From Chitinophagales bacterium (lineage in GTDB: Bacteria > Bacteroidota > Bacteroidia > Chitinophagales > CAIOSU01): a DNA stretch of 64,000 nucleotides. Under the pieces are notes generated by a model that was given only the letters and a program-made list of their open reading frames with translations, was not told the DNA's origin and ran no database searches. Below are positions 1,811-56,069 of this stretch, piece by piece. The first letter of the stretch is position 1, and each line of letters opens with the position of its first letter. The stretch covers positions 1,200,591 through 1,264,590 of the forward strand of contig BPHB01000001.1 of the NCBI GenBank assembly GCA_026003335.1, in the 5' to 3' direction. Made by a program: the position numbers and the translations under genes.

Positions 1811-2809
1811 TTACCTGTTAAAGTGATATGAAACGAACACCTCATGGGATCCGCCCAGATACGAGGCAATATCTGAAAAGGAAAGGTCATAAGCATACCC
1901 TATCTTAAATTGCCTTTTTATCATTACGCCTGCGTCAACCACAATGTTAGTCATGGAGCGGTAGCCAGCACCTATCCATAGCGTATTCTTATAGCGGAAA
2001 CGGGTGTACACGTCAAACTGATAAGGTGCACCGGGCACCTGCCTGAACCAAGCCATCGGCTCAATATAAAAACGGTGTACAAATTGTCTCGCACGTAGCC
2101 CGCTACGGGGCTTTTCCAGCTCTTTCTTACCAAATGGTATCTTGCCGCCAACAACCAGAAATAAATGATTCACCTTATGAATCCCTGATGTAGCCGTACC
2201 ATAAGTATATTCCAGTTTCCAGGGAATCACCTGAGGTGCTGAAAATCCAATGTAAAACTTGTCATAGTAATAATAAAATCCAAGTCCGGCATTACCCAGA
2301 ATCCTGGACCGGTCACCAGCAATTACATTGGGGTCGTTGGCACTTTCAGGAATAAATTCAGAAGCATTCAAGCCATATTGTGTCACGGAAGCAGTCAGCC
2401 CGAGTGAGATATGGCTTTTTCTCAGAAAAGCAGCCCAGTGAAACGGATTTATCTTGGCAAAAGAAATATGGTATGCACAGGTCAGGCTGCCATGAAACTG
2501 AAACGTGGGACCTGTTTTATCATGCATTACATAAGCTCCTACGCCAATAAAATTTCCTGCCCGCTGAAACTGATCGCCTTTGCTGTAAATAGGCATTCTT
2601 CCTCCACCGGTGATAGTACGGGGGGCGCCTTCCACATTCGTCCACTGCTGACGATAGGAGGCATTGATAATAGCATGCCCCTCTGATCCGGTAATTGCAG
2701 GATTCAATACATATCCGTTTTCATGATACAAGCTGAAAATAGGAACCTGCTGACCCATAGCCGTCACCATGAAACACAGCAGGAGTATGACCGTTTTAAT
2801 CGCTTTCAT
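1811..2809 (-). CDS. PorP/SprF family type IX secretion partner, outer membrane
   Basis: The 332-residue product has a signal peptide (residues 1-19, ending TAMGQ) and the family opening QVPIFSLYHENGYVLNPAITG followed by alternating beta strands to a C-terminal Tyr-His-Phe-Asn-Arg, as expected for a 14-stranded outer-membrane barrel. PorP/SprF proteins are paired with large T9SS adhesins. SprF is needed for SprB to reach the cell surface in Flavobacterium johnsoniae, and members are proposed to anchor their partner. Here the start codon lies only 2 bp after the stop of the 3398-residue SprB-like gene, so this is almost certainly its dedicated partner, co-transcribed and possibly translationally coupled. 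Confidence 0.92.
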   Translation of the reverse strand: MKAIKTVILLLCFMVTAMGQQVPIFSLYHENGYVLNPAITGSEGHAIINASYRQQWTNVEGAPRTITGGGRMPIYSKGDQFQRAGNFIGVGAYVMHDKTGPTFQFHGSLTCAYHISFAKINPFHWAAFLRKSHISLGLTASVTQYGLNASEFIPESANDPNVIAGDRSRILGNAGLGFYYYYDKFYIGFSAPQVIPWKLEYTYGTATSGIHKVNHLFLVVGGKIPFGKKELEKPRSGLRARQFVHRFYIEPMAWFRQVPGAPYQFDVYTRFRYKNTLWIGAGYRSMTNIVVDAGVMIKRQFKIGYAYDLSFSDIASYLGGSHEVFVSYHFNR

Positions 2810-2811
2810 AA

Positions 2812-5800
2812 TTAATTGGATAATATGGTAACATGGCCTGTTACAGCCTTACCTATGTTATGCAGTTTAATGACATAATAATAGGTTCCATCCGGAAGTT
2901 TTTTGTTTCGGTAAGTTCCGTCCCAGTCATTCTGGTAGCCTTTCTTTCGGAAAACCTCATCGCCCCATCGGTTCACGATGATTACTTCATTATCCGGGAA
3001 AACCTCCTGCAGCTCCGTAATCCGCCACACATCATTGATACCATCCCCGTTGGGCGTAATGACATTCGGGATAAAGATGTTGGTCTCATCTTTTACAATG
3101 ATCGTCATGAAAACCGTATCAGCACATTGCGTGGTTGTGTCTGTAACTATAAGCTGATAAGAAATAGTTTTCACCGGACTTGCTGACGGGGCATTGCAAT
3201 CAGCGCAACTTAGATAATCCGGGGGAGCCCATGTGTATCTTACAGTAGCAATATCTGAGGAGGCCTGCAGATCAATAACCTGACCTTCATAGATTGTTTG
3301 GGGCGATTGCGGCAAAATAACTGCGTTCGGAGAAGCAACATTGATGATGGAGAAATTTATTTGCGTATCGCAGGCATTTGCGTCTCTTACTATCAGGCTG
3401 TAGAGATCGGGTACCAGGCCTGTAATCACAGAATCTGTGGCAAATGATACACCGTTGCCGTTGATCCATTCAAAAGAATAAGCAGGGGTGCCACCCGTAA
3501 TAATGGCCGTGGCTCTTCCGTCATTGTCATCACAATACGAATCCTTAATCTTCACAAAATCCACCGCAGGCCCAGCAATATCGGTAAGCTGTATTGTCAG
3601 AACCGTATCACAGGTGCTTGCATCAGTAATCGTAGCAGTATATAATCCTTCCAGCAGATTAGTGGGATTAAAACCGCTGGCAGGCGAAGGAGAGGATGGG
3701 CTCCACTGAATCTGATTGGGTGGATCTGCTGTGGTATGAAGAATAAGAATTGCCCCGTCCGCACGGTTACAGGTCGGTCGCGTGATTACAATATCGTTTG
3801 GTCCTATCTGTGGACCCGGGCGCTCCCCAATGCTGGTAGTAGCCTGGCTACTACATCCTTTGCTATCGGTGACTACAGCCGTATAGGAGCCCACGCCCAA
3901 CCCCGATACGCTGTAGCTGGTATCAGGAGTATTGGTTAACGGAGGTGCTGCAGTAATTGTGTAGCTATAGTTGGGGGTACCTCCCTGCACATGCACCGTC
4001 AGACCACCATTGGTGCCCCCGTTGCAGTTAGCATTACTGTCTACCCTCACGGTAACTGTTAATAGAGCAGGTTGAAGAATTTCAATACTATCGGCATGCA
4101 CACAGCCATTGGAATCGGTTACCAGCACCGAAACCACTCCTGCCGGCAGGCTGTGCACCGAATCACCGGGTGCTACGGCTGTCCCCGCTGACCAGGAATA
4201 CGTATATCCGGCAGGACCTCCGGCAGCCGGTACCCCGCCTGAAGCAACTACTTTTGCCGTTCCGTCACTACCGCCAAAGCAGGATACATCTGTTTTCGTA
4301 AGCACAGTGCTGATGGCAGTGGCAGGCTGCCGGATAGTATCGCTGATGCTGGCAATACAGCCATTGGCGTCTGTAACAGTTGCGCTCACTGCTCCTGCCG
4401 GAAGTTTAGTAACCGTGGGTGAACCACTCAGAGGCGTACCCGCGCTCCAGGAGTAGCTGTATAGGGGAGTACCTCCTGACGGACTCACCGTAGCCGTACC
4501 GGTAGAGTCTCCGAAACAGGCTACATCCGTATGAGAAATGCTAAGAGTTAATACAGGGGGCTCATAAATGTTTACGCTGTCCTGAAAGGTACATCCGTTG
4601 GAGTCTCTGACTGTAACTATAATTATTCCGGGTGCAAGATCAATGACCGAGCTGCTGTCAGGCAGCTGCGGAGTGCCGCTACTCCAGGTATATGTAAACG
4701 GAGGTGTGCCTCCGCTTACGGTTACCTGTGCCGTACCATTGGAGTCGCCAAAGCAAGTAATATTCGTACTATCCATAGTAAGTGTGATCACCGCGGGCTC
4801 ATTGATTACCACCGTATCCGAAGCCGAACAGTTGAGCGAGTCGGTTACTACAACCCAAACCAGTCCGGGGCCCAGTCCCGTTGTGGAATCCCGATCAAGA
4901 GGAGGAGTGCCCTCACTCCACAAATAAGTATAAGGCACGGCCGTGCCGGGTGTACCTCCGGTAACAACAACGGATGCTTTCCCGTCATGGGCTCCATAGC
5001 AGGAGATATCTGTTTTGGATAGAGTCAGAGCAATAGGCCCGGGGGAATTAATCTCCGCAGAATCTACTGCCATACACTGATGCCAGTCAGTAACTGTAAC
5101 CCTTACAAATCCATTTTGCAGATTGGTAACGGTATCGCCATTTCCTGCCGGAGTGCCGCTGCTCCAGGTGTATGTAAAGGGAGGTGTGCCTCCCACAGCC
5201 GTTACGCGCGCTGTTCCGTTGGAATCTCCAAAGCAGAGGTTATCTGTGGTATTGAGCACAAGACTCAAAGCCGTGGGCTCATAAACAAGGGCAGAATCCA
5301 CAGCCACACAACCTCTTGAATCAGTAACCGTGACATGTACCACTCCGGCAAATAAACCCGTATTCAAACTATCTGTAGAGCTGCTTCCTGCATCCCATGT
5401 ATAGGTATATCCGGGTGTACCACCGGAAGGAGTTACGACAGCTATGCCGCTGCTATCCCCATGACAATCTACCGAATCTGCAATGACAGAGGTCGTCAGT
5501 TGCGAAGGTTCAACTATTTCTACACTGTCTATTACCGAACAGGATTTGGCATCGGTAACCGTCACTATTACGTAACCAGCAGCAAGACTATCCGGTGTAG
5601 GTGTATTGTCTCCATTGCTCCACTGATATGTATAAGGGGGATTTCCTCCGGATGCTGTTGCAGTAGCCTGCCCGTCTGTTTCTCCAAAACAGCTGATGTT
5701 TACTCTGGATAGTGCAACACTTAACACAGGCGGCTCAAGCACTTCAATGCTGTCAGTTACCTGACAGTTGTTTTGATCCGTAACGGTTATGGTTACATAT

Positions 5801-8800
5801 CCGGCTGCAAGGCTATCCGCTGTAGGAGTGTCGTCTCCATTGCTCCACTGATAGCTATAAGATGGAACGCCACCGGTTACACTTACCTGAGCGCGTCCAT
5901 CTGCCAATCCACCACAGCTTACACTGTCAAAAACGAGCGTAGTCTGCAGTGATTCCGGTTCGGACAGGCTAACGGTCAAAGAGGAATTGCATCCCTTAGC
6001 ATCCGTTGTGACAACCGTGTAATCACCTGCAAACAAATTGTCAATATGTTGTGATGCAGAGCTAAAAGAGGGGCCTGTCCACGAGAAGGTGAATGCTCCG
6101 GATCCTCCCGACACCGTCAGGTTAATGGAGCCGTCATTGAAACCCTTGCAGGAAATATCATTTTTATCCGCTATCAGACGGACAGGCATCGGTTCGCTTA
6201 CAGCAAACACCTGAACCGATGTGCATTGTGCGCTATCGGCAACCGTTACTGCATATGTCCCTGCATACAGATTGCTGACGTTCTGCGTGGCAGCTCCGTT
6301 TGACCACAAGAAGGTATGGGCGCCATGCACATTCAGGGTGATGGAGCCGTCATTCCTACCATAACAACTAACAGGAGTTACAGATGCAGTTACTGACGGT
6401 CCATTTTCATTTACTGCAAAAGTGGACTCAGCAGTACATCCGCTGGCATCCGAAACACTGAGTGTGTAGACGCCTGCCGTCAGAGAAGTTATATCTTCGG
6501 TGACAGCACCGTTTGACCATGCAAAAGTGAAAGGCGCTACGCCCTGACTTAAGGTAACATTTATAGTTCCATTAGTTGAGCCGCAAGAGGCATCGCTGAC
6601 GACACCATTTATCACAATCCCCTGACTAACCCCCACCGAGTAACAGGCCACGGAGATACATCCGGTGGTATCATCGGATACCGTAACGCAATATGTTCCC
6701 TGACTGAGGCCGGTAATGCCGGGGGTGTTGAATCCGTTTGACCATTGAACGGTATAGCCGCCTGAGCCATTGGTGATATTCAGTGTTATGCTTCCACGGT
6801 TAGAAGAGCAGGTGGAGTCATCTTCAATGATGGCATTCATCTCCGGTCCTGCGGTATTTTCCACGATGATGCTGTCCAGCGATTGTGAGCATGCCCCATC
6901 GGTGACTGTTACCGAATAGAGACCAGGCGACAAACTGTCAATGTCTTCAGTGTTCTTGCCTCCTGTCCATTGAAAGAGGTAGCCGCTGCCTGAGCCCTGA
7001 AGGACAGTCAAGTCAATCTTGCCATTGGATATGCCGCATGTGGCGTTGATTACATTAGCCGAAAGCTCAATTCGTGTAGCCGTTTCCACATTAAAGCTTC
7101 CGATTTCCCTGCAGCCGGCCTGGTCGGTAACAATCAATGTGTAGAGGCCCTCCTTCAGTGCACTCAGATCTTCCAGATTACTGCCATTAGACCACTGGTA
7201 AGTATAAGGAGCCGTTCCTCCGACTACTGTTACATCCAGTGAACCGTCATTGCCTCCCGGACAGGAAACATGCCCCACCGAAGCCGAGATTGCAATAACC
7301 GGAGGAGCCGATATAGTAATGGTATCAGAGGCCTGGCAACCCAGGTTATCAGTGACAGTAACCGATACAAGCCCGGGCGACAATCCGGAAATGGAATCGG
7401 TATTTTGGGGGCTTACGTTCCATGTATAGGAGTAGGGCGGATTGCCTCCGCTGACAGCTACCCATGCTGAGCCATCCCTGGCATCAGAACAGGATAAATC
7501 ACTTTTACTCAAGGTGAGCACCATGCCGGCCGGCTCGCCTATAGTCACGAAAGCTGTATCAGCACATTGATTGTCATCCCTCACAATCACAGTGACTGGG
7601 CCGGGTGCAAGATTTCTTACCGTATCTTCATTCAGTGGTGTTCCCCGGTTCCATTGGTACGTGTAATCGCCTCCGGCAGCTACCGTTCCTCCGGAAGCGA
7701 TCACCCATGCTACCCCATCTGTATCGCCATAACAGGTAACATCTATCTTATCCATAACGAGGGCTATGGCATTCGGTTCATTGATGTTCACACAGGCTGT
7801 ATCCGCACAGCCGTTATTATCTCTTATAGCCACGCATATTTGTCCGGGAGGAAGATTGGTCAAGCTGTCGCCTCCTACCGGCGTGCCTACACCTGCAGGA
7901 TTCCAGAAATGGATATAGGGAGGTGTGCCACCCGAGGCACTGGCCGCAACAGCACCGTTGTTTTCTCCAAAACAGGTAATGTCATATCCTCTCAGGGAAG
8001 CCTGCAACTGCGGGGGCTCAACGATGTTTACGGAGCCGTTTACCGTGCAGCCATTCCCATCCGTAACCGTTATGGAGGCAGTGCCCGCACAAAGCTGAAT
8101 AATGCTGTCCCCACCGGCAAGAGTTATTCCCCCGTTAGCCGACCATGTGCCAAAACTAAAGGAACCTGAACCTCCGGCAGCATGCACTCCTGCTTTTCCA
8201 TCACATACACCAAAACAACTAATATCTTCTTTATACAAGGTAACCGTAAGAGGGCCAGGCTGGGTAACAGTAGTATTTGCCGAAATGGTGCAGTTGTTGG
8301 CATCTGTAACGGTTACCGAAACCGTTCCCGCGCACAGGTTGAACGTAGAATCTCCCAATGCACTCGGATTACCGGCACTCCATGAATAGGTAAAACCGGG
8401 TGTTCCTCCGGAAACACTTGCCCACGCTTTCGCATCACATAAACTGTTGCAAGACACATCCTGACGATCTACGGTAACGCTGAGTGCTGACGGTTGATTA
8501 ATAGTAGTAGAACCCGCTACCGTGCAGTTGTTGGCATCCGTAACGGTTACCGAAACTGTTCCGGCTGCTAATCCACACAAGGAATCAAGCGTACTGCCCG
8601 TACTCCAGTTAATAGCGTAAGAGGGTGTTCCTCCGGAAATGTCAATCCATGCACAAGCATCCGAGCCGCCATTACAGCTTACATCTTTTTGATTGATGAG
8701 AACTGAAAGCTGATCAGGCTCAATAATCAGCAAAGTGTCGTAAACAGTGCAATTATTTGCATCTGTTACACTAAATATCACCTGACCGGGTCCTAATCCC

Positions 8801-11800
8801 GTTGCACTATCGGTAGTACTTACCACTACACCACCTATCGTCCATACTTTACTATATGGCGGAGTACCTCCATTCAATCCGTTGACAAATGTTTTTCCGT
8901 CATTGGCTCCGAAACAGCTGATGTCGGTTTTTGAGGTGGTAAATACCATGCCGGGAATTTCGGTAATGGTGATGCAAGCGGTATCCTGACAACCGTTTGC
9001 ATCGGTAACTGTTACACATGCTGAACCGGGGCTGAGGTTAAAAGCAGTATCATTTGCAGAGGCGTTGCTCCATAGGTAATTATAATTTGGGGTTCCCCCG
9101 CTTACGGCTACCCATGCCTTGCCGTCAGCAGCTCCTCCGCAGCTTACGTTTTGACTGCCAAGGGTAAGCACCAGTGCCGAAGGTTGATTAATGGTAATAT
9201 TGGCAGAGGCCGTGCAGCTAAATGAATCTCTTACCGTAAGGGTGACAACACCAGCATTGAGATTACTCACTTTGGAGCTATCCAACGGATCGGGGTTACC
9301 TTTTGACCAGCTATAGCTGTAGCCGTTTGCTTTAGGAGTTCCCCCGGTAACGCTTACAGAGGCCGTGCCACTGCTGTCTCCAAAACAAAGGACATCCGTT
9401 TTTGAAAGTATCAGGTTTAGAGGAGGAGGTTCTGAAATGGTAACAGATGCAGTTTTAAAACAGGTGGAGTCGGCAACGTCTTTAATTGTCACGTTCACCG
9501 GGCCAGGGCCTAATCCGCTTACCATACTGGAACCGTAAGACGGGATACCTGCACTCCACACATAAATATAGCCGGACCCGCTGCCTCCGCTTGCCATCAC
9601 CTCAGCAGTTCCGTCTGTGAGCCCGTTACAGGTTATATCTTTTTTTGTTATGATGAGGGCTAGGGAGTCGGGCTGGTTAACGGCAATGGTGGCCGTGGCT
9701 GTGCACGTATTCTGATCTGTGACTGTGACAGCCGTAAATCCCACCTGAAGATTTGTGGCAAAAGAATCCGTGGAGCTGTTTGTCCACTGATAACCATAAG
9801 GAGGCGTTCCACCGGTAACACTTACCCAGGCTGCTCCGTTGCTGCCGCCATAGCAGGTGACATCTGTTTTGTTCAGGTTAAGCACTAAAGGGGTGGGCTG
9901 TGTAATGGATACGTTGGCGGTTACCGTACATCCGGCTGCATCCGTAACTGTTACCGAACATACCCCTGCACAGAGGCCTGTTGCCGTAGCAGAAGTTTGC
10001 CCATTGCACCACTGGTAGGTGTAGGGCGAAGTGCCTCCCGATGGGATAGCGGTGGCAATTCCTGTACACTGTCCATTACAGCTTACGTGTACCACACCGG
10101 TAAAAGAAACCGTAAGAGGAGCGGAGCCTGCAATGTTCACATTGGCAGAAGCTGTGCAGCCGTTGGCATCAGTTACAACAACGGTGGCCGTTCCGGGGCA
10201 CAAGCTGTCAGCATCAGGAGTGGTTTCTCCATTATTCCACAAGTATGTGTAAGGTCCTACACCGCCAGAAGGATTTGCCCGGGCTCTTCCATCACAGGAG
10301 CCGCTGCAAAGCGGGTCTACCACGTTTGAGATGGAAACCGTCAACTGCGCGGGCTGGGTAATATTAATGGTAAGCGTATCTGCACATCCACCCTGGAGCG
10401 TATCTGATACGGTTACAGTATATGTGCCGGCTGCCAGTGCCGTGCGGTTCTTGGTCATAGGCCCGTCACTCCAATGGTATGCGTACACTCCGGTACCCCC
10501 GCTTACATTAAGATGGATGGAGCCGGTGTTTTGTCCAAAACATAGTACATCCGTATCGTTGACCGAAACGATGAACTCGGGATTGACTGTTATATAATTT
10601 TCCAGCGTATCTGTCAAAGAGCCCCCCGGATAAACGGATGTAAGAATGACATCATAGATGCCGGGAGTATTGTAGCAGATATGTGGAGCGGAGTCATTGG
10701 ATGTAGCAGGAGTTCCCCCCGGAAAAACCCAACTATGTGAGCTCGGTTTTACGGTATTGTAATCACGAAATTTTACGCAATTGGTAGCGCATATCAGGGT
10801 ATCCTCTCCACCAAAAATCAGGTCAGGCAGAGTAGGATCTACAAAGCTGAATGCACTGCAAAGAGTTACATTGGATATTGTGCCAACGTTATTGGTAACG
10901 TCAATAGCTGCTGACGGTGGGGGTTGTAGCCAAATCTGACTGCCCGGATCCCATTGATGTGGTCGCATGAGGTTTTCGGTAATGGCATTACTACCGCTGC
11001 CCCACTCAGCATCCAGATAGGTGAACGACAGGCTAACCCGCGGAGAAGTGGAATACCCCCCGCAATCATATACCCAGAAGCGGTCCAGTTCTCTGGGTGC
11101 ATTTTCACTGCCTACAAAATTATTGAGGTTAGTAACCCCCGGAGGGAGAGGACGGTTGTTTACGGGTGGATAAGGATCGGTAGGATAGGTGGCACAGGAA
11201 ACCCATCCGTTACCTGAGGGCACCCCGGCTGTCTGTACGGTAAGAGTAAAAGGAATATAGGTATACGTTGTGGGGAACCATTGTACATGCTTGGCGAATG
11301 GAAATGTATATACCGTCCCCGGGGATGCATTATGGATATACCAGCGCAGGCTGCCGGGCGGAGTGGGAGTTTCGCTGATCAGATAGCCTGTTGGTTGACG
11401 CTGAATGGCAGCGGGTGAAGCATTTTCTATCCAGATATCATTTCCATTCATGAACAGGACATTATTACCAAGAATAAGGTTGTTTTTTACCCTTATATCA
11501 CCGGTAAGCTTGCGGGTTTGTTCCAGCGCGATGGTGTTGAATAACATGGTGGAAGAGGGACCTTCGCCATCAATGTAATACTCTGCGGTTACAGGTGTGT
11601 ATGGCCAGTAGGTAAAATTCACGTATGAGTTGAAGGTAAGCGCATCAACATTGCCCTGTATATAGGTCCAGTTTCGCTCTACCACAATGGTATCGCGCAG
11701 AGTCAAGGTGCCGGAGGGCTTATTTATCACTATATTGGGAAGGAAGCCACGGGTTTTCCAGGTTTGGCCCCAGAGTAGCTGGTTGCCGGTGCCATCAATG

Positions 11801-13008
11801 CTGATGATAGCATTGCCCCCGCAGTAATTGGTAGTGCCATTAGGTGTGGTTACTCTGATATCTCCTTTTGCCGAAATCGTTCCCTGGTACAGATCGGCCA
11901 GGTTGTTCCCCACTATTTCAAGAGTATTCATTACCGTAAGGGTATCTCCCGGGGCGATAGTTCTGGAGTGAAAGGGCACCTCACCCTGAAATTTGACATT
12001 GTACAGGGAAAACGTGCCGCTGATGGAATCCATCGTCAGGCTCCAGAACCATACTGTGGAAGTGCCATAGTTGATTATTCCCTTACGATAATGCAGGTCA
12101 GGTCCAATACGAATGTTCCCGATCAAATTCAGGGTGCCGGAAGGTTTATCAATAATGATATTTTCATACCAGGCGTCCTGAGCAGGGTTGGGATGCCCGA
12201 CAAGCCGTTGATTGCCGGTGCCGTTTATAATAATATTTACCGTACCATACCAGGGTTGCTGAGGAGCACTTACATAAGTCATGGTAATATCTCCTTGGGC
12301 ATATATCGTACCGGGACCGTAAATGCGGTTGTGCAGACCCACGCCTGTTTTAGTTAAGGTGTCCAGCACCGTCAGGATGGTAGAACTGCCGTTAATGTAA
12401 AAATCACGAGTTTGATCAAAGCACCGGAAATCCAACTTGTAAAAGGTAGCTGATCCTGTAATGTTTTTAAAGGTGCGCGGGTCACCTTTAAAGATGACCT
12501 TTCCGTTGTTATGGGCAAAATTTGCAGGGTTGGCCACGCTGAAATCACCGGCTACTATAAGTGCTTTAGCAGTACTGTTAAACAGGCTGGCGCCACTGAG
12601 ACTAAAAAGAGTGGTTAACCCGGGAGGAGATTCTATCACAATGTCGGCCGTTGAACTGCCGTTAAAGGTGCCTCCCGTCATTTTAAAACCCTCGCTACCG
12701 GCAACGAAAGCAGGGCTGGTGGAGCCACTTGGGAAAACAGTCAGGGTGAAACTATTTTGATTGAATACGCCTCCTGACATTTCAAAATGCGATACAGTGA
12801 CGTTGGCATCCAGATTACAGGTGCCGGATGTTATCAATACCTTGTCATTGGCTCCGGGTACTCCGTTGGGAGTCCAGTTGGCGGCTGTACCCCAATTACC
12901 TACGCCCCCATTCCAGGTGTATGCTACCGCACCGGCTTTTAAAAAGCCCAGCAAAAGAAATATGCCAACACATATTGCTTTTGGGGGAAAACTTAATCTT
13001 TGATGCAT
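2812..13008 (-). CDS. giant SprB-repeat surface adhesin, T9SS type B cargo
   Basis: A 3398-residue secreted protein. In order: signal peptide (about 1-28); a beta-helix-like region of short Gly/Asn/Thr-rich strands (about 30-700) with repeated Y-x-N-I-x-I-(D/N)-K-P-S-G-T-L motifs; one PKD-like domain (about 735-820); about 31 tandem SprB-type repeats of 70-100 residues (about 825-3180); a short Ig-like region with a C-A-D-C pair; and a C-terminal T9SS type B domain (NVITPNGDGINDVW, then IIVNRWGDEVF and PDGTYYYVIKL). Each repeat follows the pattern D-(V/I)-x-C-x-G-x-x-(D/N)-G, then G-G-T-P-x-Y-x-Y-x-W-S-x-G, then V-T-V-T-D-x-x-x-C. Repeats 15-19 form a shorter sub-type. SprB in F. johnsoniae is the mobile gliding adhesin. 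Gliding or attachment here is inference from the repeats and the adjacent SprF-like gene. Confidence 0.93.
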   Translation of the reverse strand: MHQRLSFPPKAICVGIFLLLGFLKAGAVAYTWNGGVGNWGTAANWTPNGVPGANDKVLITSGTCNLDANVTVSHFEMSGGVFNQNSFTLTVFPSGSTSPAFVAGSEGFKMTGGTFNGSSTADIVIESPPGLTTLFSLSGASLFNSTAKALIVAGDFSVANPANFAHNNGKVIFKGDPRTFKNITGSATFYKLDFRCFDQTRDFYINGSSTILTVLDTLTKTGVGLHNRIYGPGTIYAQGDITMTYVSAPQQPWYGTVNIIINGTGNQRLVGHPNPAQDAWYENIIIDKPSGTLNLIGNIRIGPDLHYRKGIINYGTSTVWFWSLTMDSISGTFSLYNVKFQGEVPFHSRTIAPGDTLTVMNTLEIVGNNLADLYQGTISAKGDIRVTTPNGTTNYCGGNAIISIDGTGNQLLWGQTWKTRGFLPNIVINKPSGTLTLRDTIVVERNWTYIQGNVDALTFNSYVNFTYWPYTPVTAEYYIDGEGPSSTMLFNTIALEQTRKLTGDIRVKNNLILGNNVLFMNGNDIWIENASPAAIQRQPTGYLISETPTPPGSLRWYIHNASPGTVYTFPFAKHVQWFPTTYTYIPFTLTVQTAGVPSGNGWVSCATYPTDPYPPVNNRPLPPGVTNLNNFVGSENAPRELDRFWVYDCGGYSTSPRVSLSFTYLDAEWGSGSNAITENLMRPHQWDPGSQIWLQPPPSAAIDVTNNVGTISNVTLCSAFSFVDPTLPDLIFGGEDTLICATNCVKFRDYNTVKPSSHSWVFPGGTPATSNDSAPHICYNTPGIYDVILTSVYPGGSLTDTLENYITVNPEFIVSVNDTDVLCFGQNTGSIHLNVSGGTGVYAYHWSDGPMTKNRTALAAGTYTVTVSDTLQGGCADTLTINITQPAQLTVSISNVVDPLCSGSCDGRARANPSGGVGPYTYLWNNGETTPDADSLCPGTATVVVTDANGCTASANVNIAGSAPLTVSFTGVVHVSCNGQCTGIATAIPSGGTSPYTYQWCNGQTSATATGLCAGVCSVTVTDAAGCTVTANVSITQPTPLVLNLNKTDVTCYGGSNGAAWVSVTGGTPPYGYQWTNSSTDSFATNLQVGFTAVTVTDQNTCTATATIAVNQPDSLALIITKKDITCNGLTDGTAEVMASGGSGSGYIYVWSAGIPSYGSSMVSGLGPGPVNVTIKDVADSTCFKTASVTISEPPPLNLILSKTDVLCFGDSSGTASVSVTGGTPKANGYSYSWSKGNPDPLDSSKVSNLNAGVVTLTVRDSFSCTASANITINQPSALVLTLGSQNVSCGGAADGKAWVAVSGGTPNYNYLWSNASANDTAFNLSPGSACVTVTDANGCQDTACITITEIPGMVFTTSKTDISCFGANDGKTFVNGLNGGTPPYSKVWTIGGVVVSTTDSATGLGPGQVIFSVTDANNCTVYDTLLIIEPDQLSVLINQKDVSCNGGSDACAWIDISGGTPSYAINWSTGSTLDSLCGLAAGTVSVTVTDANNCTVAGSTTINQPSALSVTVDRQDVSCNSLCDAKAWASVSGGTPGFTYSWSAGNPSALGDSTFNLCAGTVSVTVTDANNCTISANTTVTQPGPLTVTLYKEDISCFGVCDGKAGVHAAGGSGSFSFGTWSANGGITLAGGDSIIQLCAGTASITVTDGNGCTVNGSVNIVEPPQLQASLRGYDITCFGENNGAVAASASGGTPPYIHFWNPAGVGTPVGGDSLTNLPPGQICVAIRDNNGCADTACVNINEPNAIALVMDKIDVTCYGDTDGVAWVIASGGTVAAGGDYTYQWNRGTPLNEDTVRNLAPGPVTVIVRDDNQCADTAFVTIGEPAGMVLTLSKSDLSCSDARDGSAWVAVSGGNPPYSYTWNVSPQNTDSISGLSPGLVSVTVTDNLGCQASDTITISAPPVIAISASVGHVSCPGGNDGSLDVTVVGGTAPYTYQWSNGSNLEDLSALKEGLYTLIVTDQAGCREIGSFNVETATRIELSANVINATCGISNGKIDLTVLQGSGSGYLFQWTGGKNTEDIDSLSPGLYSVTVTDGACSQSLDSIIVENTAGPEMNAIIEDDSTCSSNRGSITLNITNGSGGYTVQWSNGFNTPGITGLSQGTYCVTVSDDTTGCISVACYSVGVSQGIVINGVVSDASCGSTNGTINVTLSQGVAPFTFAWSNGAVTEDITSLTAGVYTLSVSDASGCTAESTFAVNENGPSVTASVTPVSCYGRNDGSITLNVHGAHTFLWSNGAATQNVSNLYAGTYAVTVADSAQCTSVQVFAVSEPMPVRLIADKNDISCKGFNDGSINLTVSGGSGAFTFSWTGPSFSSASQHIDNLFAGDYTVVTTDAKGCNSSLTVSLSEPESLQTTLVFDSVSCGGLADGRAQVSVTGGVPSYSYQWSNGDDTPTADSLAAGYVTITVTDQNNCQVTDSIEVLEPPVLSVALSRVNISCFGETDGQATATASGGNPPYTYQWSNGDNTPTPDSLAAGYVIVTVTDAKSCSVIDSVEIVEPSQLTTSVIADSVDCHGDSSGIAVVTPSGGTPGYTYTWDAGSSSTDSLNTGLFAGVVHVTVTDSRGCVAVDSALVYEPTALSLVLNTTDNLCFGDSNGTARVTAVGGTPPFTYTWSSGTPAGNGDTVTNLQNGFVRVTVTDWHQCMAVDSAEINSPGPIALTLSKTDISCYGAHDGKASVVVTGGTPGTAVPYTYLWSEGTPPLDRDSTTGLGPGLVWVVVTDSLNCSASDTVVINEPAVITLTMDSTNITCFGDSNGTAQVTVSGGTPPFTYTWSSGTPQLPDSSSVIDLAPGIIIVTVRDSNGCTFQDSVNIYEPPVLTLSISHTDVACFGDSTGTATVSPSGGTPLYSYSWSAGTPLSGSPTVTKLPAGAVSATVTDANGCIASISDTIRQPATAISTVLTKTDVSCFGGSDGTAKVVASGGVPAAGGPAGYTYSWSAGTAVAPGDSVHSLPAGVVSVLVTDSNGCVHADSIEILQPALLTVTVRVDSNANCNGGTNGGLTVHVQGGTPNYSYTITAAPPLTNTPDTSYSVSGLGVGSYTAVVTDSKGCSSQATTSIGERPGPQIGPNDIVITRPTCNRADGAILILHTTADPPNQIQWSPSSPSPASGFNPTNLLEGLYTATITDASTCDTVLTIQLTDIAGPAVDFVKIKDSYCDDNDGRATAIITGGTPAYSFEWINGNGVSFATDSVITGLVPDLYSLIVRDANACDTQINFSIINVASPNAVILPQSPQTIYEGQVIDLQASSDIATVRYTWAPPDYLSCADCNAPSASPVKTISYQLIVTDTTTQCADTVFMTIIVKDETNIFIPNVITPNGDGINDVWRITELQEVFPDNEVIIVNRWGDEVFRKKGYQNDWDGTYRNKKLPDGTYYYVIKLHNIGKAVTGHVTILSN

Positions 13009-15577: not shown

Positions 15578-16906
15578 ATGAAAGGTGTGAAAAAAAGTTT
15601 TCTTGCTTGTCTGTTCCTGCTGAGTCTGCAGGTGCACGGGCAGCCGTGTATTGCAGACTTCAGCTACACTCTAAACGGGATGAGTGTAACTTTTCAAGAC
15701 CGGTCAACAGGCAATGCTGTAATCTTCCAGTGGAATTTCGGTGATGGCACCACGGGCAGTGGAAGAAACGTTACACACACTTATACAGTCCGGAGAAAAT
15801 ACACCGTAAGGCTTTCCATCAGTAATCCTAACAATCCGCAATGTTCCGACTTCCGGGATACTACTATCTGCGTAGGATGTGTTTTCCCCGGTGACGCCAA
15901 TAACGATGGGATTGTAAATAACAAAGACGTGCTGTACGTGGGGCTTGCCTTCGGGGCTATCGGCCCTGTACGTGCAGACACCTCCGGAACCCCAGATTTT
16001 ACGCCATCGCCACCATGGGTTTCGGTGCTGGGTCTTGCAAATCATCCGGGAGGAATTAATTACAACCATTCTGACTGTGATGGCAACGGCATTGTCAATC
16101 GCCATGATGTACGAATCATAGATAAGAACTACGGGTTACAGCCCACCCCCAAGAGTGGCGGCAACGGGTGTCTTAATACACAGGATGTACCTCTGTATTT
16201 TGAGGTTATTGACAGTATTCCTGCCGGTTCTGCCGTAACCATTGCGCTGCGCTTGGGCAATCTACAAGTGCCTGCGCACGATGCTTACGGCATTGCATTT
16301 ACAATTGTATATAACGCAGAGCTGGTGCGTGGCGAATACACGGATATTGACTACAGCGCATCCCTGTTGGGTCCGCCACAGGAAATTATTTATCTGAATA
16401 AAAACTTTCCCCTTAATGGAAGAATTGAAAGCGCAGTGAGCCGTATTGACCATAACGGGCTTACTCTTGCCGGAAAAATTGGCACCCTGAATTTCGTCAT
16501 GGAAGAAAACCTGGCCCAAAAAACCTTAATTACCAAAACCCTGAATCTGGCATTTGACAATGTATTTCTTATTCGCAGTGATGGCAGTGCAATTCCGGTT
16601 TGTGCGCACCAGGATTCAGCAGTGGTTTTCCAGAAACTGCTTACTTCCGGCCAGGCTGCTGAAGCAATCGGGAAAATCTTACTTTATCCGAACCCCGCCC
16701 GTGAATGGCTTACTATAGAATGCCCGCAGCACCGATGTGCATCTCTGCAACTGGTAAATATCTGGGGACAGAAGGTTGCGGAACTGCGGCAGGTATCGGA
16801 AAGCAGGATTTCTCTGCCTCTGGAAGGCATTCCCGAAGGATTGTATTTTATGATAATACAGGATAGCAACGGGGTTCAGATTTTTAAGATTGAAATTGCA
16901 CGTTAG
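15578..16906 (+). CDS. secreted PKD / dockerin-like / cohesin-like protein, T9SS type A
   Basis: A 442-residue exported protein. It has a signal peptide (1-22, ending QVHGQ) and a PKD domain (about 24-100) with the strand WNFGDGTTGSG followed by THTY. Next come two calcium-loop-like segments, GDANNDGIVNNKDVLYVG (about 105-122) and DCDGNGIVNRHDVRIID (about 167-183), arranged like a dockerin pair but with a 45-residue insert. A beta-rich region (about 200-345) resembles a cohesin or other Ig-like fold. The type A T9SS sorting domain (about 365-442) starts ILLYPNPAREWLTIE and ends in a basic strand. It is probably surface-attached or released. The next gene starts 1 nt after its stop, so the two form an operon. 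The cohesin assignment is tentative. Confidence 0.85.
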   Translation: MKGVKKSFLACLFLLSLQVHGQPCIADFSYTLNGMSVTFQDRSTGNAVIFQWNFGDGTTGSGRNVTHTYTVRRKYTVRLSISNPNNPQCSDFRDTTICVGCVFPGDANNDGIVNNKDVLYVGLAFGAIGPVRADTSGTPDFTPSPPWVSVLGLANHPGGINYNHSDCDGNGIVNRHDVRIIDKNYGLQPTPKSGGNGCLNTQDVPLYFEVIDSIPAGSAVTIALRLGNLQVPAHDAYGIAFTIVYNAELVRGEYTDIDYSASLLGPPQEIIYLNKNFPLNGRIESAVSRIDHNGLTLAGKIGTLNFVMEENLAQKTLITKTLNLAFDNVFLIRSDGSAIPVCAHQDSAVVFQKLLTSGQAAEAIGKILLYPNPAREWLTIECPQHRCASLQLVNIWGQKVAELRQVSESRISLPLEGIPEGLYFMIIQDSNGVQIFKIEIAR

Positions 16907-16907
16907 C

Positions 16908-19550
16908 ATGTGGACTAAGACAAAAAGGATATTCCTATTTACCTGTTTCTGGATGACAGGGGCAGTGTATGCCAATGCGCAGTGCGTAAATCCCGCCCTC
17001 ATTGACACTACCCAGACGTGCACGGGCTTTCAGCCTGTGTGTGGCTGCAACAATATCACCTATGTCAATGCCTGTGAGGCAGAATACTACGGAGGATTAA
17101 CCAATTGGTCGGCAGGTCCCTGCCCGACAGCGGCAGGTTGCCAGGCCAATTTTCAGATCAGCATTCAGACGAGCCCCTCGGCAGGATTTATCGTTGCTTT
17201 CCAGAATACTTCTATAGGGGCCTATACGTCATCAGAGTGGAGCTTTGGGGATGGAAGTTTTTCCATCATTACCAGTCCAACCCATACCTATACACAAGCA
17301 GGAAGTTACCTGGTTTGTCTGATTGTATCCGGTACCCCAAACTGCCGCGATACTATTTGCAAGCCCGTTGTGCTCAGTACCATCCATAGCTGTGTGGATA
17401 GCAACCGTATTAACCTTTTGCAACCATGTCCAACGGTTTACAACCCGGTGTGCGGCTGCGATGGGGTTACCTATTTTAATGATTGTGAAGCCAAATACCG
17501 CGGAGGTGTGACCCAGTGGACGCTGGGGTCCTGCCCGGGCAGCTCATTCTGTGAGGCAAGATTTAATTATAGCGTGTATACTGGCCCGATGGGTTATGCT
17601 GTGGTGTTTGATAATCAGTCCACCGGTCATTTCGATTTTTCTCATTGGGATTTTGGAAATGGCCTTACTTCTAACATAAAAAATCCGGTAATACCGCTTC
17701 CGGCCAATCATCTTCCGGCAATTCTTGAAGTTTGCCTGACCATCAGCGACAGCGCCCAAGCCTGCACAGATACTTATTGTCAATATATTAACCTGTCTCC
17801 TCCCGGGTGTTTTGAGCCCCTGGCTTTAGCACCTGGTAGGTCTTGCCCTGCGCTGTTTGATCCGGTCTGCGGATGCGATGGGAATACCTACTCTAATCCT
17901 TGTGAAGCCTTATATTACCATGGCATTACTTCGTGGACAGCAGGCACCTGTAATGCGCCCCATCCATGCCATGCAAGTTTCAGTTTTGTTGTTCAGGGCA
18001 TGCAGGTCAGCTTTACCAATACCTCTGGCGCAGGGGCTCAAATAACAAACTGGAACTTTGGTGATAACACCACCTCTACCTTGCGTAATCCCGTGCATAC
18101 CTATACGGCTGCGGGCAGATATACCGTTTGCCTTTCGGTGACAGATTCGGCAGGACATTGTCAGGATGTTTTCTGCAGCAGTGTTACCATTGCCGGTACG
18201 GGACAGCCCTGTCGCAACAGCAACATGATTAAAAACGTCCCTTGTCCCTCTACAATGAATCCGGTCTGCGGATGCGATGGCATCACATATAGCAATGCCT
18301 GCCGGGCGGAAAATAACGGGGTAACCAACTATACGGCAGGTCCCTGCATACAGCAGAATATTCAATCCTGCAAATCTTTCTTTACATTTCAGATTCAAAC
18401 CGGGTCCATAGGCTACAACGTCCAGTTCAACAACCAGGCAACAGGCAATGCCACTTCCTATAAATGGAGTTTTGGCGATGGAAGTATGCAAACAACAGTT
18501 AGTCCGTCCCACACCTACCTCATTCCAGGCAACTACACCGTATGCCTTACTATTGAAGATACAGTACTTAACTGTGCAGATACCTATTGTGAAAATATCA
18601 CCGTAGATGCCGGTATGTCCTGTTTCAGCCAATCGGTAATTGACTCACATATTGTCTGCCCTACTGTGATTGATCCGGTATGCGGATGTGACGGAAAAAC
18701 ATACGCGAATAGTTGTGAAGCTTACTACCGGCATGGAATCACATACTGGACAAAAGGTGCCTGCAACAATTCCTGTAGGGCTATATTCACTTTTACGGTT
18801 GACTCTACAGGAAAGGGCGTTTCTTTCAGAAATGCTTCTGTTGGCGGTTTATTTCAGTTATACTGGGATTTTGGTGATGGCAGGAGCTCAACAGCCGATA
18901 GTCCGTTTCACTACTATGACATAGAAGCACCTCAGGTATTCAGCGTTTGCCTTACCATATATGACAGTACTACCCATTGTACCGATCAGGTGTGCAGAAC
19001 AATAGCGCTCTCCGGTTTTCCGGTTCCCTGCGTCAACGGATTCATGCATTATGCCGATTCCACGGGTATGACTTTGTTTTTTGAAAGTCAGCTATCCGGC
19101 AATCCGAAAAATATTTTGTGGGATTTTGGTGACGGCACATCCGCCAGTAGCATTGCGCCCTATCACACTTACCTGCAACCGGGACAATATATTATTTGCC
19201 TGACGGTAAATGATTCGGCAGCCGGATGTTTTGACACCTATTGCGATACGGTAACCGTAATGGCTTACACCGCAATAACCGGAACAGAACCGCTCTCTGC
19301 CTTCCACATTTTCCCTAATCCATCAGCCGGAGTTTTATATGTAACATTCAACCTGCCGCGGGCGGCTTCTGTAAAAGCGGAAATGTTTAATGTGCTGGGT
19401 GGGGCTACTCCGCTAATGGGCAACACAGTCTTCTCTCCCGGTCGTACCAGGTTAACGCTGGATGTATCAGAAGTACCCCCTGGTCTTTATCTGATAAAAC
19501 TGGTCATAAACAACCAGCCCTATTATCAGCGTTTATATGTGGTTCGGTGA
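16908..19550 (+). CDS. secreted multi-Kazal / PKD protein, T9SS type A
   Basis: An 880-residue exported protein in which Kazal-like and PKD domains alternate. After the signal peptide (1-25, ending ANAQ) come five Kazal-like domains at about 26-75, 162-212, 298-347, 428-478 and 567-618, each with C-P-x4-P-V-C-G-C-(D/N)-(G/N)-x-T-Y-x-N-x-C. Six PKD domains lie at about 80-160, 213-297, 350-425, 482-565, 620-700 and 703-785, with W-(D/S/N)-F-G-(D/N)-G and a Cys pair each. A type A T9SS sorting domain (about 795-880) begins FHIFPNPSAG. Kazal domains usually inhibit serine proteases by a substrate-like loop, so a protease-inhibitor array is the natural inference; activity is not proven. The ATG at 16908 starts a clean signal peptide 1 nt after the previous stop. 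A TTG at 16890 would add six residues. Confidence 0.88.
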   Translation: MWTKTKRIFLFTCFWMTGAVYANAQCVNPALIDTTQTCTGFQPVCGCNNITYVNACEAEYYGGLTNWSAGPCPTAAGCQANFQISIQTSPSAGFIVAFQNTSIGAYTSSEWSFGDGSFSIITSPTHTYTQAGSYLVCLIVSGTPNCRDTICKPVVLSTIHSCVDSNRINLLQPCPTVYNPVCGCDGVTYFNDCEAKYRGGVTQWTLGSCPGSSFCEARFNYSVYTGPMGYAVVFDNQSTGHFDFSHWDFGNGLTSNIKNPVIPLPANHLPAILEVCLTISDSAQACTDTYCQYINLSPPGCFEPLALAPGRSCPALFDPVCGCDGNTYSNPCEALYYHGITSWTAGTCNAPHPCHASFSFVVQGMQVSFTNTSGAGAQITNWNFGDNTTSTLRNPVHTYTAAGRYTVCLSVTDSAGHCQDVFCSSVTIAGTGQPCRNSNMIKNVPCPSTMNPVCGCDGITYSNACRAENNGVTNYTAGPCIQQNIQSCKSFFTFQIQTGSIGYNVQFNNQATGNATSYKWSFGDGSMQTTVSPSHTYLIPGNYTVCLTIEDTVLNCADTYCENITVDAGMSCFSQSVIDSHIVCPTVIDPVCGCDGKTYANSCEAYYRHGITYWTKGACNNSCRAIFTFTVDSTGKGVSFRNASVGGLFQLYWDFGDGRSSTADSPFHYYDIEAPQVFSVCLTIYDSTTHCTDQVCRTIALSGFPVPCVNGFMHYADSTGMTLFFESQLSGNPKNILWDFGDGTSASSIAPYHTYLQPGQYIICLTVNDSAAGCFDTYCDTVTVMAYTAITGTEPLSAFHIFPNPSAGVLYVTFNLPRAASVKAEMFNVLGGATPLMGNTVFSPGRTRLTLDVSEVPPGLYLIKLVINNQPYYQRLYVVR

Positions 19551-23397: not shown

Positions 23398-26300
23398 CTA
23401 TTCTTGGGGACAGCCGTAGTTGGATGCTGGTCCCGGGATATTGGGACAATCATCCAACCGGTCTTCAATGCCATCGCCATCGGTATCGGGGCAGCCCTTG
23501 AATTGTGGCAGGCCAGCTTTGTAAGGACATTCATCCAGGCTGTTTATGATGCCATCGCCATCGCTGTCAATTCTATCATCGGTTTTATCCCTGGGATTGG
23601 TTTTATCCCGGTTCACTTCGTCACCATCATTTACACCACCGCCATCGGTGTCGGCATTCAGGGGGTCTGTTTTGGTGATGTTTATTTCCATACCATCATC
23701 TAAACCGTCATCATCGGAATCTTTTTTATTGGGATTTGTGGAATATGTATTGACTTCCACGTAGTCGCTGAGTTGATCTCCATCAGTGTCAGGATTGAGG
23801 GGATCGGTTCCAAGCCCGACTTCTTCTCCGTCAATAAGGCCATCCCCATCCGTATCGGGATTCCGCGGGTTGGTTTTTCTTGCCTTCTCATCTGCGTCAC
23901 TCAATCCGTCTTTGTCATTATCTTTGATTTTGATTTCCCGCACTTTATATTTTTTCTCTTTCTTGGCAATGACTTTGGTTATTTTGATACCCAGGAAAGC
24001 ATAATGGTCAAGCTTGTTGGGAGAATTTGTTTTCCTGCCATCGGGAAATGTAAAGGCGTCATTATATCCTGAATTGGGATTCGGACTATTGGGGTTGTTA
24101 TCTATAACACCCTGATCTACATTTACCAATGAGGGATTGGCCAGTAGTGCAGCAGTGTTGTAGGTGGTAGTGATTCCCGTATTGGGGTCGGTGAAGGTAA
24201 TGGTATTATCCAGGCGCACTTTCTCTCTTCCGGCTTTGCCCCAGATTTCAGGGTTTGCATCTACTATGGATTGGTGTGCTCCCAAGGGAATGCCTGTTAC
24301 CGGATCAATGAGCATATCCCCGTTGCTATTGTATCTGGCACGATCCCAGTAATAGCCTCCTACATCATCCAGATATTTGGTGGTAGAAATTCTCACTCCC
24401 AGTTCAATGCCCAAAGTCCACTTATTGTAGATGATATAATCAAGGGAAATACCAATAGGAAAGGAAACCTGAAAGCGGCTGTATTGTTTGGGTGCAAAAT
24501 GATCCTTATATAATTCGTAATTGGGGGAATTGTTGAGGGGATCGGCTTCAGGGTCTCTCCCACCTACGGTTTGACCTTCCGTACCTATGGGGCGCAGGGG
24601 CACCCACACATCTTTTCCTGAACCATCCGTCTGAAAGCTACCATCCCGGTAGGTGAGGTACACTGGATCGCTCTGATCATCTTTATACAGGTAGATACGA
24701 GCCTTGGGGTTGTTATTATGCAGTGCTATTCCGGCAAAAATGGTTGGAGTAAACTTCTCTCCGCGGCTGGTGCCGTATTTCAGCAGGTGCCAGTGGAAGG
24801 TAATACTGCCTTCAACCAGGTCATTGCGGAAGTTCAGTGCTCTGGCAGCACGGTCAGGGTCTTTGCTGCTGATTTCATTTCCTGAAATCCGGCCATACCA
24901 AAACATGGCCCTCAAAGAAATCCACTTATTGAGATTATACTGCCCGAAAAAGCCTGCAGAAAAATGAAATGCTGATGGCTCAATCAACTTGTAAGGCAGG
25001 GTCCCCATGTAGTTGGAAACCCCTAGCAAAAGACCTACTTCCCAGGTTTTGGTAAGTGAGCGATACGGACCTAATTGATTTATGCCTCCGATATTGGTGA
25101 GTGTTTCAATTGTTTTTACAGACTTCTCATCCGGCAGGAATGCTCCGCCCTCCACTTCCACGTTGATGGTACCGGCTTTTCTGCTGATAATATCTACAGT
25201 TCTGAGGCTGGGACCAGCCGTTCTTTTCAGGTTGTTAATGGCCTGCCGCCTGCCCAGCGTGAATTCCGGTACTATAAAGCCCTCTTCATCTTTAAAATTT
25301 TTCAGGATAGCATAGGCATAAGGATTTTTGACAAAAGCGGCATTGCTGGCAACAAAGGTGTAAGTCTTCCTGTCAGGCGACCATCTGGGCTGAGACAGGG
25401 CTACGGGAGCTTTTTGCAGAGTGCGCGAAATGGTATCATAAAAAACAGCCTCCAGTTGTACTTTATCAAAAGCTACCACAGGCTTATTGAAATGTAATTC
25501 AAACTGCACATTCCGGGGCTCCACATCCGGAATGGAGTCGTAGTTTTTTACTTCTACTCCGTTGATCAATACCTTCCAGATATGGGGCGGGGTTTCTTCT
25601 TTGGGTGCGGGCAACAGCGGCTCAGGTTTCAAAAGCGGCAGCCGGCTGTTTTGATAAAAGTGGTCGAAGGTGGACGACACATAATCCGGGTTTTTTGAGC
25701 GGAAAAAGTTATTGGGGATTTCAAAAAATTCACCATCACCCTGAATGCCGATACTTATTTCACGAATAATGGTATCCGTAGATGAATTGACCTGATAATT
25801 GCCGAAGATGGAGTTGTTTTCCATTTTCATCTTGTATTCAGCTCCGATGGCATCATAAAGACCAAACACGGGCGTATTGGAAGGTATGCCAATGTCTATA
25901 CCATAAACCACATTGTTGGTAATCAGGTTATTGTTGAATGTGAGTTTCAGAACGTTATCCTCAAAATTTTCAATAAAGATGGATCCCCAGTTATCATAAA
26001 ACGCATTGTAGGAAAACGAAAAGTTACAAACACTTTCTCCGGTAGCATCGTAAGGCATTACCGGACTGGTGATGAGGACATTGGATTCACCCGTAAAGAG
26101 TTCGGTGAAAACGTTTTTTTCAATAGTTACATTTTTACGATACCACTCTGACTCAAAGCGCAAGGGAATGTTCAGATTTTTAAACCAGGCATAACGGATG
26201 GTAATATCCCCTCCTTCGGTTCCCCGGACTACTATGCCATTGCCCGGGGTATTAGGGTTACGGCTGGTCAGTTCCACAAAATTGTTAGGTGCACCTGTAA

Positions 26301-26586
26301 TGGTGAGTCCCCCTTCCAATACAATGGATGTAGCGGGATCAAAGACAATGTGGGTGCCGGGATTAACCGTCAGACGTGCAGCCTTTCCGACCTTCACATT
26401 GAACTTTACCAGATACACTTTGTCCGCAGTCAGCGTTTTGTTCTCGTTGATAAATCCTTCCAGCGTAATGGTGTCCTTACCTGCTGGGCTGCGCTGGGCA
26501 TAGGAAGAAGATACGCACAAGCCCAAGGCTAAAGTCAGGGTTAACAGCGCACTTCTAAACCCGGTGATGATATTATTTCTACGCAT
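23398..26586 (-). CDS. large outer-membrane protein: beta-helix, barrel, thrombospondin type-3 repeats (paralogue 2)
   Basis: A 1062-residue exported protein. After the signal peptide (about 1-31, ending SSSYAQ) comes a right-handed beta-helix-like region (about 40-320: VYLVKFNVKVGKAARLTVNP, VEGGxTxxG-type turns, repeated N-N-x-(I/F) strands), then an Ig-like segment (about 345-450). A beta-barrel-like region (about 500-890) reads like the DUF6089 outer-membrane barrel (WEVGLLLGVSNYMGTL, RPIGTEGQT, KYLDDVGGYYWDRA). The C-terminus (about 900-1062) has seven Asp-rich thrombospondin type-3 calcium loops such as DTDGDGLIDGEE. There is no OmpA peptidoglycan-binding domain and no T9SS domain. It is a full-length paralogue of the preceding gene, 11 nt away, and the last gene of the gldL-gldM operon. 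The ATG at 26586 is preferred over a GTG at 26610 that overlaps the upstream gene. Confidence 0.85.
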   Translation of the reverse strand: MRRNNIITGFRSALLTLTLALGLCVSSSYAQRSPAGKDTITLEGFINENKTLTADKVYLVKFNVKVGKAARLTVNPGTHIVFDPATSIVLEGGLTITGAPNNFVELTSRNPNTPGNGIVVRGTEGGDITIRYAWFKNLNIPLRFESEWYRKNVTIEKNVFTELFTGESNVLITSPVMPYDATGESVCNFSFSYNAFYDNWGSIFIENFEDNVLKLTFNNNLITNNVVYGIDIGIPSNTPVFGLYDAIGAEYKMKMENNSIFGNYQVNSSTDTIIREISIGIQGDGEFFEIPNNFFRSKNPDYVSSTFDHFYQNSRLPLLKPEPLLPAPKEETPPHIWKVLINGVEVKNYDSIPDVEPRNVQFELHFNKPVVAFDKVQLEAVFYDTISRTLQKAPVALSQPRWSPDRKTYTFVASNAAFVKNPYAYAILKNFKDEEGFIVPEFTLGRRQAINNLKRTAGPSLRTVDIISRKAGTINVEVEGGAFLPDEKSVKTIETLTNIGGINQLGPYRSLTKTWEVGLLLGVSNYMGTLPYKLIEPSAFHFSAGFFGQYNLNKWISLRAMFWYGRISGNEISSKDPDRAARALNFRNDLVEGSITFHWHLLKYGTSRGEKFTPTIFAGIALHNNNPKARIYLYKDDQSDPVYLTYRDGSFQTDGSGKDVWVPLRPIGTEGQTVGGRDPEADPLNNSPNYELYKDHFAPKQYSRFQVSFPIGISLDYIIYNKWTLGIELGVRISTTKYLDDVGGYYWDRARYNSNGDMLIDPVTGIPLGAHQSIVDANPEIWGKAGREKVRLDNTITFTDPNTGITTTYNTAALLANPSLVNVDQGVIDNNPNSPNPNSGYNDAFTFPDGRKTNSPNKLDHYAFLGIKITKVIAKKEKKYKVREIKIKDNDKDGLSDADEKARKTNPRNPDTDGDGLIDGEEVGLGTDPLNPDTDGDQLSDYVEVNTYSTNPNKKDSDDDGLDDGMEINITKTDPLNADTDGGGVNDGDEVNRDKTNPRDKTDDRIDSDGDGIINSLDECPYKAGLPQFKGCPDTDGDGIEDRLDDCPNIPGPASNYGCPQE

Positions 26587-26597
26587 TTCAGTTGTGC

Positions 26598-29459: not shown

Positions 29460-29478
29460 ATACAAAATTGGCGTAGCT

Positions 29479-31128: not shown

Positions 31129-31168
31129 AAGCCGTTTCTACGGGGCCGTGGTTAATGAAGGTTATGGT

Positions 31169-47441: not shown

Positions 47442-47557
47442 GCATACCGGGCTGTAGCTACATACCTTCGGGCATAACAATGGTTCGCTTCATGTGGGAT
47501 GAATATTGCACACATCTGCCTGCCCCCTAGCTCTCCACACTATCTCCATAAATTTGC

Positions 47558-47587
47558 TTGTCATAAGGGATTATATTTTTAACTTTA
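47558..47587 (+). promoter_or_regulatory. candidate promoter of the PorP/SprF gene at 47623
   Basis: TTG (47558-47560), then exactly 19 nt, then TAACTTTA (47580-47587) gives the Bacteroidota -33/-7 arrangement with one mismatch. It lies 35 nt upstream of the chosen ATG and supports that start over in-frame codons further upstream. Confidence 0.6.
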
Positions 47588-47622
47588 GCAACCTGAATAC
47601 TGAGGAAAAATCCTTCAATGTC

Positions 47623-55952: not shown

Positions 55953-56069
55953 GCCAGCATGTACAATTAGCTTATTCATCGGCTGTTATTCTTCTGGTAT
56001 GTGCTTTGAGGTTTGAATAAAAATTGTAAATTTTACGTCCCTTTTTTTTCACAATCACATTCACCGGTA

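Follow-up and report, generated by a model that had tools for sequence, protein, structure and literature searches.

The 64,000-nucleotide stretch of Chitinophagales DNA analysed here (the window) encodes a 3,398-residue SprB-like adhesin together with a PorP/SprF-type carrier, and the question raised by this pair is where on the cell such an adhesin ends up. A sequence-only reading of the window had taken the protein for the main mobile adhesin of the organism, provided that it glides. According to two 2025 papers, a type B adhesin is destined for the gliding track or else for a fixed site, and SprF rides the track via a C-tail disulfide (PMC12618676, PMC12635249). In F. johnsoniae, the Cys-X-Cys of the SprF C-tail bonds to Cys343 of GldK; adhesins need it in order to move, whereas their export does not depend on it (PMC12635249), the type B CTD and the cognate shuttle set secretion and destination (PMC12618676), and a PorE neighbour was earlier tied to static adhesins (PMC12618676, PMC9143113). 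Our answer, held with somewhat more confidence than doubt, is that the window protein is a surface adhesin neither driven by the GldK track via the known disulfide nor fixed to the wall by way of PorE, and that its repeat array grew within a compact adhesin. The pair would then represent a long SprB-type filament whose carrier has neither known attachment device, and a large SprB-repeat protein should not be taken for a gliding adhesin by default.

The adhesin, its carrier and their predicted roles

The adhesin is encoded at window 2812..13008 on the minus strand by an intact, uninterrupted frame with an ATG start and no N or ambiguous base. Pfam SprB (PF13573) matched it in 27 stretches (E = 1.9e-245; 792.6 bits, cut-off 28), and its C-terminus matched CHU_C (E = 3.7e-27) and TIGR04131 (69.2 bits, cut-off 35), identifying a T9SS type B substrate. 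It is a genuine SprB-family T9SS type B filament with its own SprF-type carrier. From the N-terminus, and all on the minus strand, the layout comprises a probable Sec signal peptide read from residues 1-27 (MHQRLSFPPKAICVGIFLLLGFLKAGA; 12928..13008), a beta-rich head (residues 28-735; 10804..12927), a PKD-like domain (residues 736-803; 10600..10803), an array of 31 SprB repeats assigned as Ig-like beta-sandwiches from alignment, AlphaFold2 and PDB matches (residues 804-3221; 3346..10599), a penultimate domain (residues 3222-3310; 3079..3345) which is kept along with the sorting domain in relatives from the order, and the type B sorting domain itself (CHU_C, residues 3312-3395; 2824..3075).

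The carrier gene begins 2 nt downstream of the adhesin stop and occupies 1811..2809 on the minus strand, encoding 332 residues (TIGR03519, 223.3 bits, cut-off 90.55; PF11751, E = 4.6e-60). Its product ends in ...HEVFVSYHFNR, so that only NR follows the last strand before the stop (1811..1819, minus strand), with no C-tail Cys and no PRFF. Shortening by a frameshift was rejected, since no PRFF or CPRF was found in the other frames past the stop. There is no PorE-like gene beside the carrier; downstream lies a 114-aa ORF unrelated to PorE and then a gene on the opposite strand. A search for a solved structure of the carrier found none.

The open frame, the repeats with their even Cys counts, the domains, the gene pair, the carrier tail and the distribution of relatives are shown directly by the sequences; from them we infer a scheme of export, display, disulfide pairing and stalk formation, with no coupling to the track, in which the two genes would act as a secretion-and-display unit. 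Sec would export the adhesin, and the T9SS would carry it over the outer membrane via its type B sorting domain; a PorP/SprF-type barrel of its own would then receive it and keep it at the surface. The 31 repeats would form a chain of Ig-like beads, each with one and sometimes two or three disulfides, and the resulting long stiff stalk would present the N-terminal head. The array would have expanded as repeats were inserted into a compact adhesin linked to a carrier, of a kind widespread in the order. Since the carrier has no C-tail Cys and no PorE neighbour, the adhesin is most likely neither track-driven nor wall-bolted by known routes and, judged from its sequence, resembles an adhesin that stays put or drifts freely rather than the main crawling leg of the cell.

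Carrier tails, gliding genes and PorE neighbours

The alternative that survives best, which we consider unlikely but not negligible, is that the protein is a genuine gliding adhesin, moved like SprB in F. johnsoniae, with a carrier that engages the GldJKN track either without a covalent bond or by another periplasmic part. The window pair resembles SprB/SprF of F. johnsoniae in having SprB repeats, a type B sorting domain, a carrier immediately downstream and no PorE beside it, and mobile F. johnsoniae pairs likewise lack a PorE neighbour (PMC12618676), as did, in our survey, most carriers whose partners have the longest SprB arrays. The source genome (3.9 Mb in 24 contigs) was found to encode the gliding/T9SS markers GldB, GldD, GldJ, GldK, GldL and PorG, and gliding is therefore possible; on this point the sequence-only reading, for which a lack of gliding genes would have been fatal, holds. 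The track side is intact in this genome, as the carrier-reactive Cys of GldK is retained and aligns with PorK Cys356 (RGCF motif), and a Cys is also present in the C-tail of PorG. The requirement for Cys-X-Cys was shown in F. johnsoniae only, and SprF without its Cys still contacts the track there sporadically (PMC12635249). Other gliders may couple their carriers differently, for example by periplasmic loops, and the window adhesin may work at the surface in the same physical way as SprB.

Against gliding stands the carrier itself, which lacks not only a C-tail Cys but practically any C-tail, and which falls on a separate branch from the CXC carriers (L140, L141 and L157), outside the CXC SprF clade, in a tree whose deep forks are weakly supported. 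Among the 19 carriers of the source genome, a C-tail Cys is present in 11, one of them beside gldJ, and is absent from the window carrier; the tree of these carriers separates, with strong support, a group of the 11 Cys-tailed members from a group of Cys-less ones in which the window carrier is found along with its orthologues. On the only defining feature of the carrier that sequence could test, the pair does not belong to the SprB-SprF gliding unit. Size also argues against it, the window adhesin having 31 repeats and 3,398 residues compared with 669 kDa for SprB (PMC9143113). A main SprB would be matched better in size by the largest SprB protein of the source genome (C1:812114-831046, L036/L037), which has 72 repeats in 6,311 residues, a C-terminus resembling type B and no adjoining carrier. 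About 30 SprB-repeat reading frames were found in this genome, some of them fragments cut at region ends, and over 20 SprB-repeat proteins exist besides these two. The window adhesin has the second longest array found, after the 72-repeat protein, and its array length therefore gives no reason to pick it as the main adhesin; together with the carrier's tail and placement, this leaves the claim of a main mobile adhesin unsupported.

Slightly less probable, in our estimate, is an ordinary static T9SS adhesin anchored to the wall via a PorE-like protein whose gene lies elsewhere in the genome. The source genome has at least four genes of the PD40-OmpA (PorE-like) kind, and examples of static type B adhesins have been described (PMC12618676). 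The window pair shares a type B substrate and a cognate PorP-like carrier with both Fjoh_3952/Fjoh_3951/Fjoh_3950 of F. johnsoniae (static adhesin, carrier and PorE-like anchor) and PG1035-PorP-PorE of P. gingivalis, but it differs from them in having neither a PorE-like neighbour nor a PRF[FYL] tail. In a survey of 61 genomes of the phylum that covered most carrier loci, 95 carriers were compared, those of the source genome and its relatives included. A PorE-like PD40-OmpA gene lay immediately downstream of 31 of 36 PRF[FYL]-tailed carriers versus 3 of 59 others (p = 1.8e-16; after collapsing, 2e-5 at the 40% and 0.0027 at the 35% identity level). The PorE linkage thus accompanies a tail that the window carrier lacks along with the neighbour. 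A statement of this association was not found in the literature examined, which is no proof of newness.

CXC tails occurred in 9 of the 95 carriers, all in one family (f6), and none of the nine, including those beside 15-25 SprB repeats, had a PorE-like gene downstream. Carriers directly upstream of gldJ, found in four families, all had a C-tail Cys, whereas the five directly upstream of gldK did not. The gldJ-linked carrier of the source genome is SprF-like and lies at C1:1677015-1677929, with counterparts at L127, L138 and L152; such Cys-tailed carriers are candidates for the track carrier outside Flavobacterium-like genomes. The single-Cys CPxF tail was rejected as a simple marker of gliding, as several carriers bearing it adjoin PorE-like genes. 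A tail-less carrier with a 38-repeat partner was also found in another family of the class (L116). Four PD40-OmpA proteins of the source genome encoded beside Cys-tailed carriers (L047, L048, L049 and L054) all contain a conserved vicinal Cys pair, TCCDDI, a possible partner for the single carrier tail Cys.

Carrier tail and PorE neighbour together appear to make up a sequence rule bearing on adhesin destination across the phylum. Going further, we tentatively suggest, while rating it a minority prospect, that the last residues of the carrier are a destination code, in which C-X-C would direct the adhesin to the GldK track, PRF[FYL] to a PorE wall anchor, and a single tail Cys on a carrier encoded next to gldJ would mark the non-flavobacterial track carrier; carriers with no tail would form an untethered third class which includes the window pair and has been extended to filaments of 24-38 repeats in some lineages.

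The repeat array and the head

A unit HMM built for the array found 31 repeats at E < 1e-3, matching the earlier count of about 31. The repeats span 71-85 residues each, with boundaries set by hand, and follow one another at intervals of ~72-85 residues; AlphaFold2 modelled r10-r12 as three consecutive Ig-like domains (mean pLDDT 95). As had been noted, they are all different, with a mean amino-acid identity of 35% and a maximum of 58% between repeats. One Leu column and one Asp column are invariant, and a Trp is found in 30 of the 31. The two fixed Cys positions described earlier were recovered in 31/31 and 30/31 repeats, the second Cys of r16 having moved by two residues.

The adhesin contains 93 Cys in total. 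Counted by repeat, there are two in 23, four in seven and six in one, an even number in all 31. The extra Cys occur invariably as pairs, in r2 and r3 (four and six Cys; 9913..10353, minus strand), in r9, r10, r11 and r12 (one extra pair each; 7792..8733, minus strand), and in r7 and r17, and when these 18 additional Cys were placed at random 2 million times, an all-even outcome never arose. The even count in every repeat supports intra-repeat disulfides, a pairing that we infer from this parity. The earlier proposal of one disulfide per repeat thus stands as regards pairing, with one being the minimum, as eight repeats carry extra pairs. Two Cys were also found in 68 of the 72 repeats of the 6,311-residue protein and in 22 of 23 units of L141, the SprB partner of a CXC-tailed SprF, as they were per repeat in the SprB repeats beside the surveyed CXC carriers generally. 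Two Cys per repeat are therefore general for SprB repeats and do not single out the window protein. Scaling from SprB, a far longer protein with a length of about 200 nm (quoted in PMC12635249), the stalk may be roughly 100 nm long.

The repeat alignment bore out that the array is built of blocks. Repeats r15-r19 are indeed shorter than the rest (72-76 aa; Mann-Whitney p = 0.006), as the sequence-only reading had it, but the sequence sub-type takes in r20, the mean mutual identity within r15-r20 being about 0.35 versus 0.31 to other repeats, and the block is therefore r15-r20 (5974..7320, minus strand). Most of its repeats are at least equally close to repeats of the 6,311-residue paralogue. 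Compared with the orthologous arrays of G003 and G002, the window array matches in order only at its membrane-proximal repeats 29-31 (3346..4083, minus strand), which correspond to the last three there, and loses colinearity in the interior; the G003 and G002 arrays are offset from each other by four repeats.

The N-terminal 700 residues had been described as a beta-helix, which could not be confirmed. AlphaFold2 modelled residues 27-815 as beta-rich but poorly (pLDDT 62), and the best beta-helix match of the head in this model was an autotransporter at E 0.19 and probability 0.2. Before the array, only the PKD-like domain had a significant PDB match (Foldseek E 5e-4 to 4e-3); Pfam PKD_4 scored E 0.0014 on it, under the cut-off. 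The head's sequence profile found no relative in the PDB. Its assignment as a domain comes from its relatives and from AlphaFold2: it is 34-38% identical to the heads of same-family orthologues and 31% identical to L215 over 677 aa, and residues ~400-698 are distantly homologous to the head that compact type B adhesins carry (probability 89 and E 2.4e-6 in hhalign). Named relatives in genome contigs gave weak local matches only (Portibacter lacus, 33% over 84 aa).

The Ig-like repeats raise the further alternative of a filament for catching prey or particles, snaring cells rather than moving, like the grappling hook GhpA of Aureispira sp. CCB-QB1 (PDB 9flp, 9flw and 9fly), also a giant surface protein with a chain of Ig-like domains. 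GhpA was the best sequence-profile match in the PDB (E 3.9e-12, over the Ig-like stretch) and among the best-scoring fold matches, with the highest query-normalised TM-score among the matches listed (0.54). The likeness is confined to the Ig-like repeats, neither the whole adhesin nor its head matching GhpA by sequence, and we regard this explanation as very improbable. The N-terminal 500 residues of the 6,311-residue protein were likewise considered as a GhpA relative and gave no match.

DNA identity between repeats reached 60% at most, and Tandem Repeats Finder reported none in the array DNA. At this level of divergence the array is old, with no recent duplication of the kind that the earlier reading had suggested looking for, and an assembly join inside it, the other possibility raised there, is implausible and left no sign. 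An assembly artefact or decaying pseudogene is scarcely credible, even though arrays often break assemblies and those of relatives G004, G005 and G006 run off contig ends, as the window array is a single 3,398-codon frame free of N inside a 2.08 Mb contig, with no tandem repeats detected and with orthologues that have comparable arrays. A separate SprB protein of the source genome (L038, C2:1003511-1006318; 2,870 aa) has 26 repeats, many of identical score in register, which suggests that its array, unlike that of the window, was recently duplicated.

Relatives of the pair and origin of the array

Our preferred reading, that of an adhesin untethered by the known routes, also holds that the array grew within a compact adhesin, and the relatives of the pair bear on this part. 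Genomes of the same family contain orthologous adhesin-carrier pairs whose arrays count 32 and 36 repeats and whose neighbouring genes differ; no conserved synteny was found around the pair, and adhesin and carrier alone travel together. Within the order, 46 of 150 genomes have a match to the window-type carrier at E <= 1e-30. The tail Cys is missing from all of the 30 closest window-type carriers, as it is from the orthologues. In the 20 regions read, the upstream partner was a type B protein in 19 of the 19 that could be resolved, and PorE was never directly downstream of the carrier.

In most families these partners are compact, with ~480-780 residues and 0-4 SprB repeats; partners with 24-36 repeats were found in the window's family and one other family only. 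Compact type B adhesins such as L219, L223, L224, L226 and L230 thus differ from the window adhesin in having 0-4 repeats rather than 31, but share with it a homologous carrier and a homologous C-terminal stretch of 110-260 residues, the heads being distantly homologous. As the partners of the closest relatives are mostly compact, the window array is a lineage-specific expansion, and the simplest reading of these sequences is that it grew by insertion of repeats between the head and the sorting domain of a compact adhesin. The closest sibling carrier (C1:1575155) is preceded by a gene for a protein of 824 aa, which was considered as a compact paralogue and rejected, since its C-terminus reads as type A and it has no match to the adhesin.

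Several other features of the window concern the same systems. An apparent second GldLM-type motor operon lies at 23398-31702 on the minus strand, separate from the main gldK-gldL at C1:1.42 Mb, and comprises a GldL-like protein (177 aa; 31169-31702), a GldM-like protein (549 aa; 29479-31128) and two fusions of a PorG-like/DUF6089 barrel with TSP3 repeats (26598-29465 and 23398-26610), all on the minus strand; no GldK or GldN was seen beside it. A PorP/SprF-type carrier ending in RYCPKF, and thus with a tail Cys, is encoded at 47506-48651 (plus strand) with no type B substrate directly upstream, and a PKD type B protein lies downstream of it at 50216-52384. The window also encodes a T9SS type A protein in which Kazal-type inhibitor domains alternate with PKD repeats (16890-19550, plus strand) and a second SprB-repeat type B protein, with 6 repeats and no adjoining carrier (56013-58880, plus strand).
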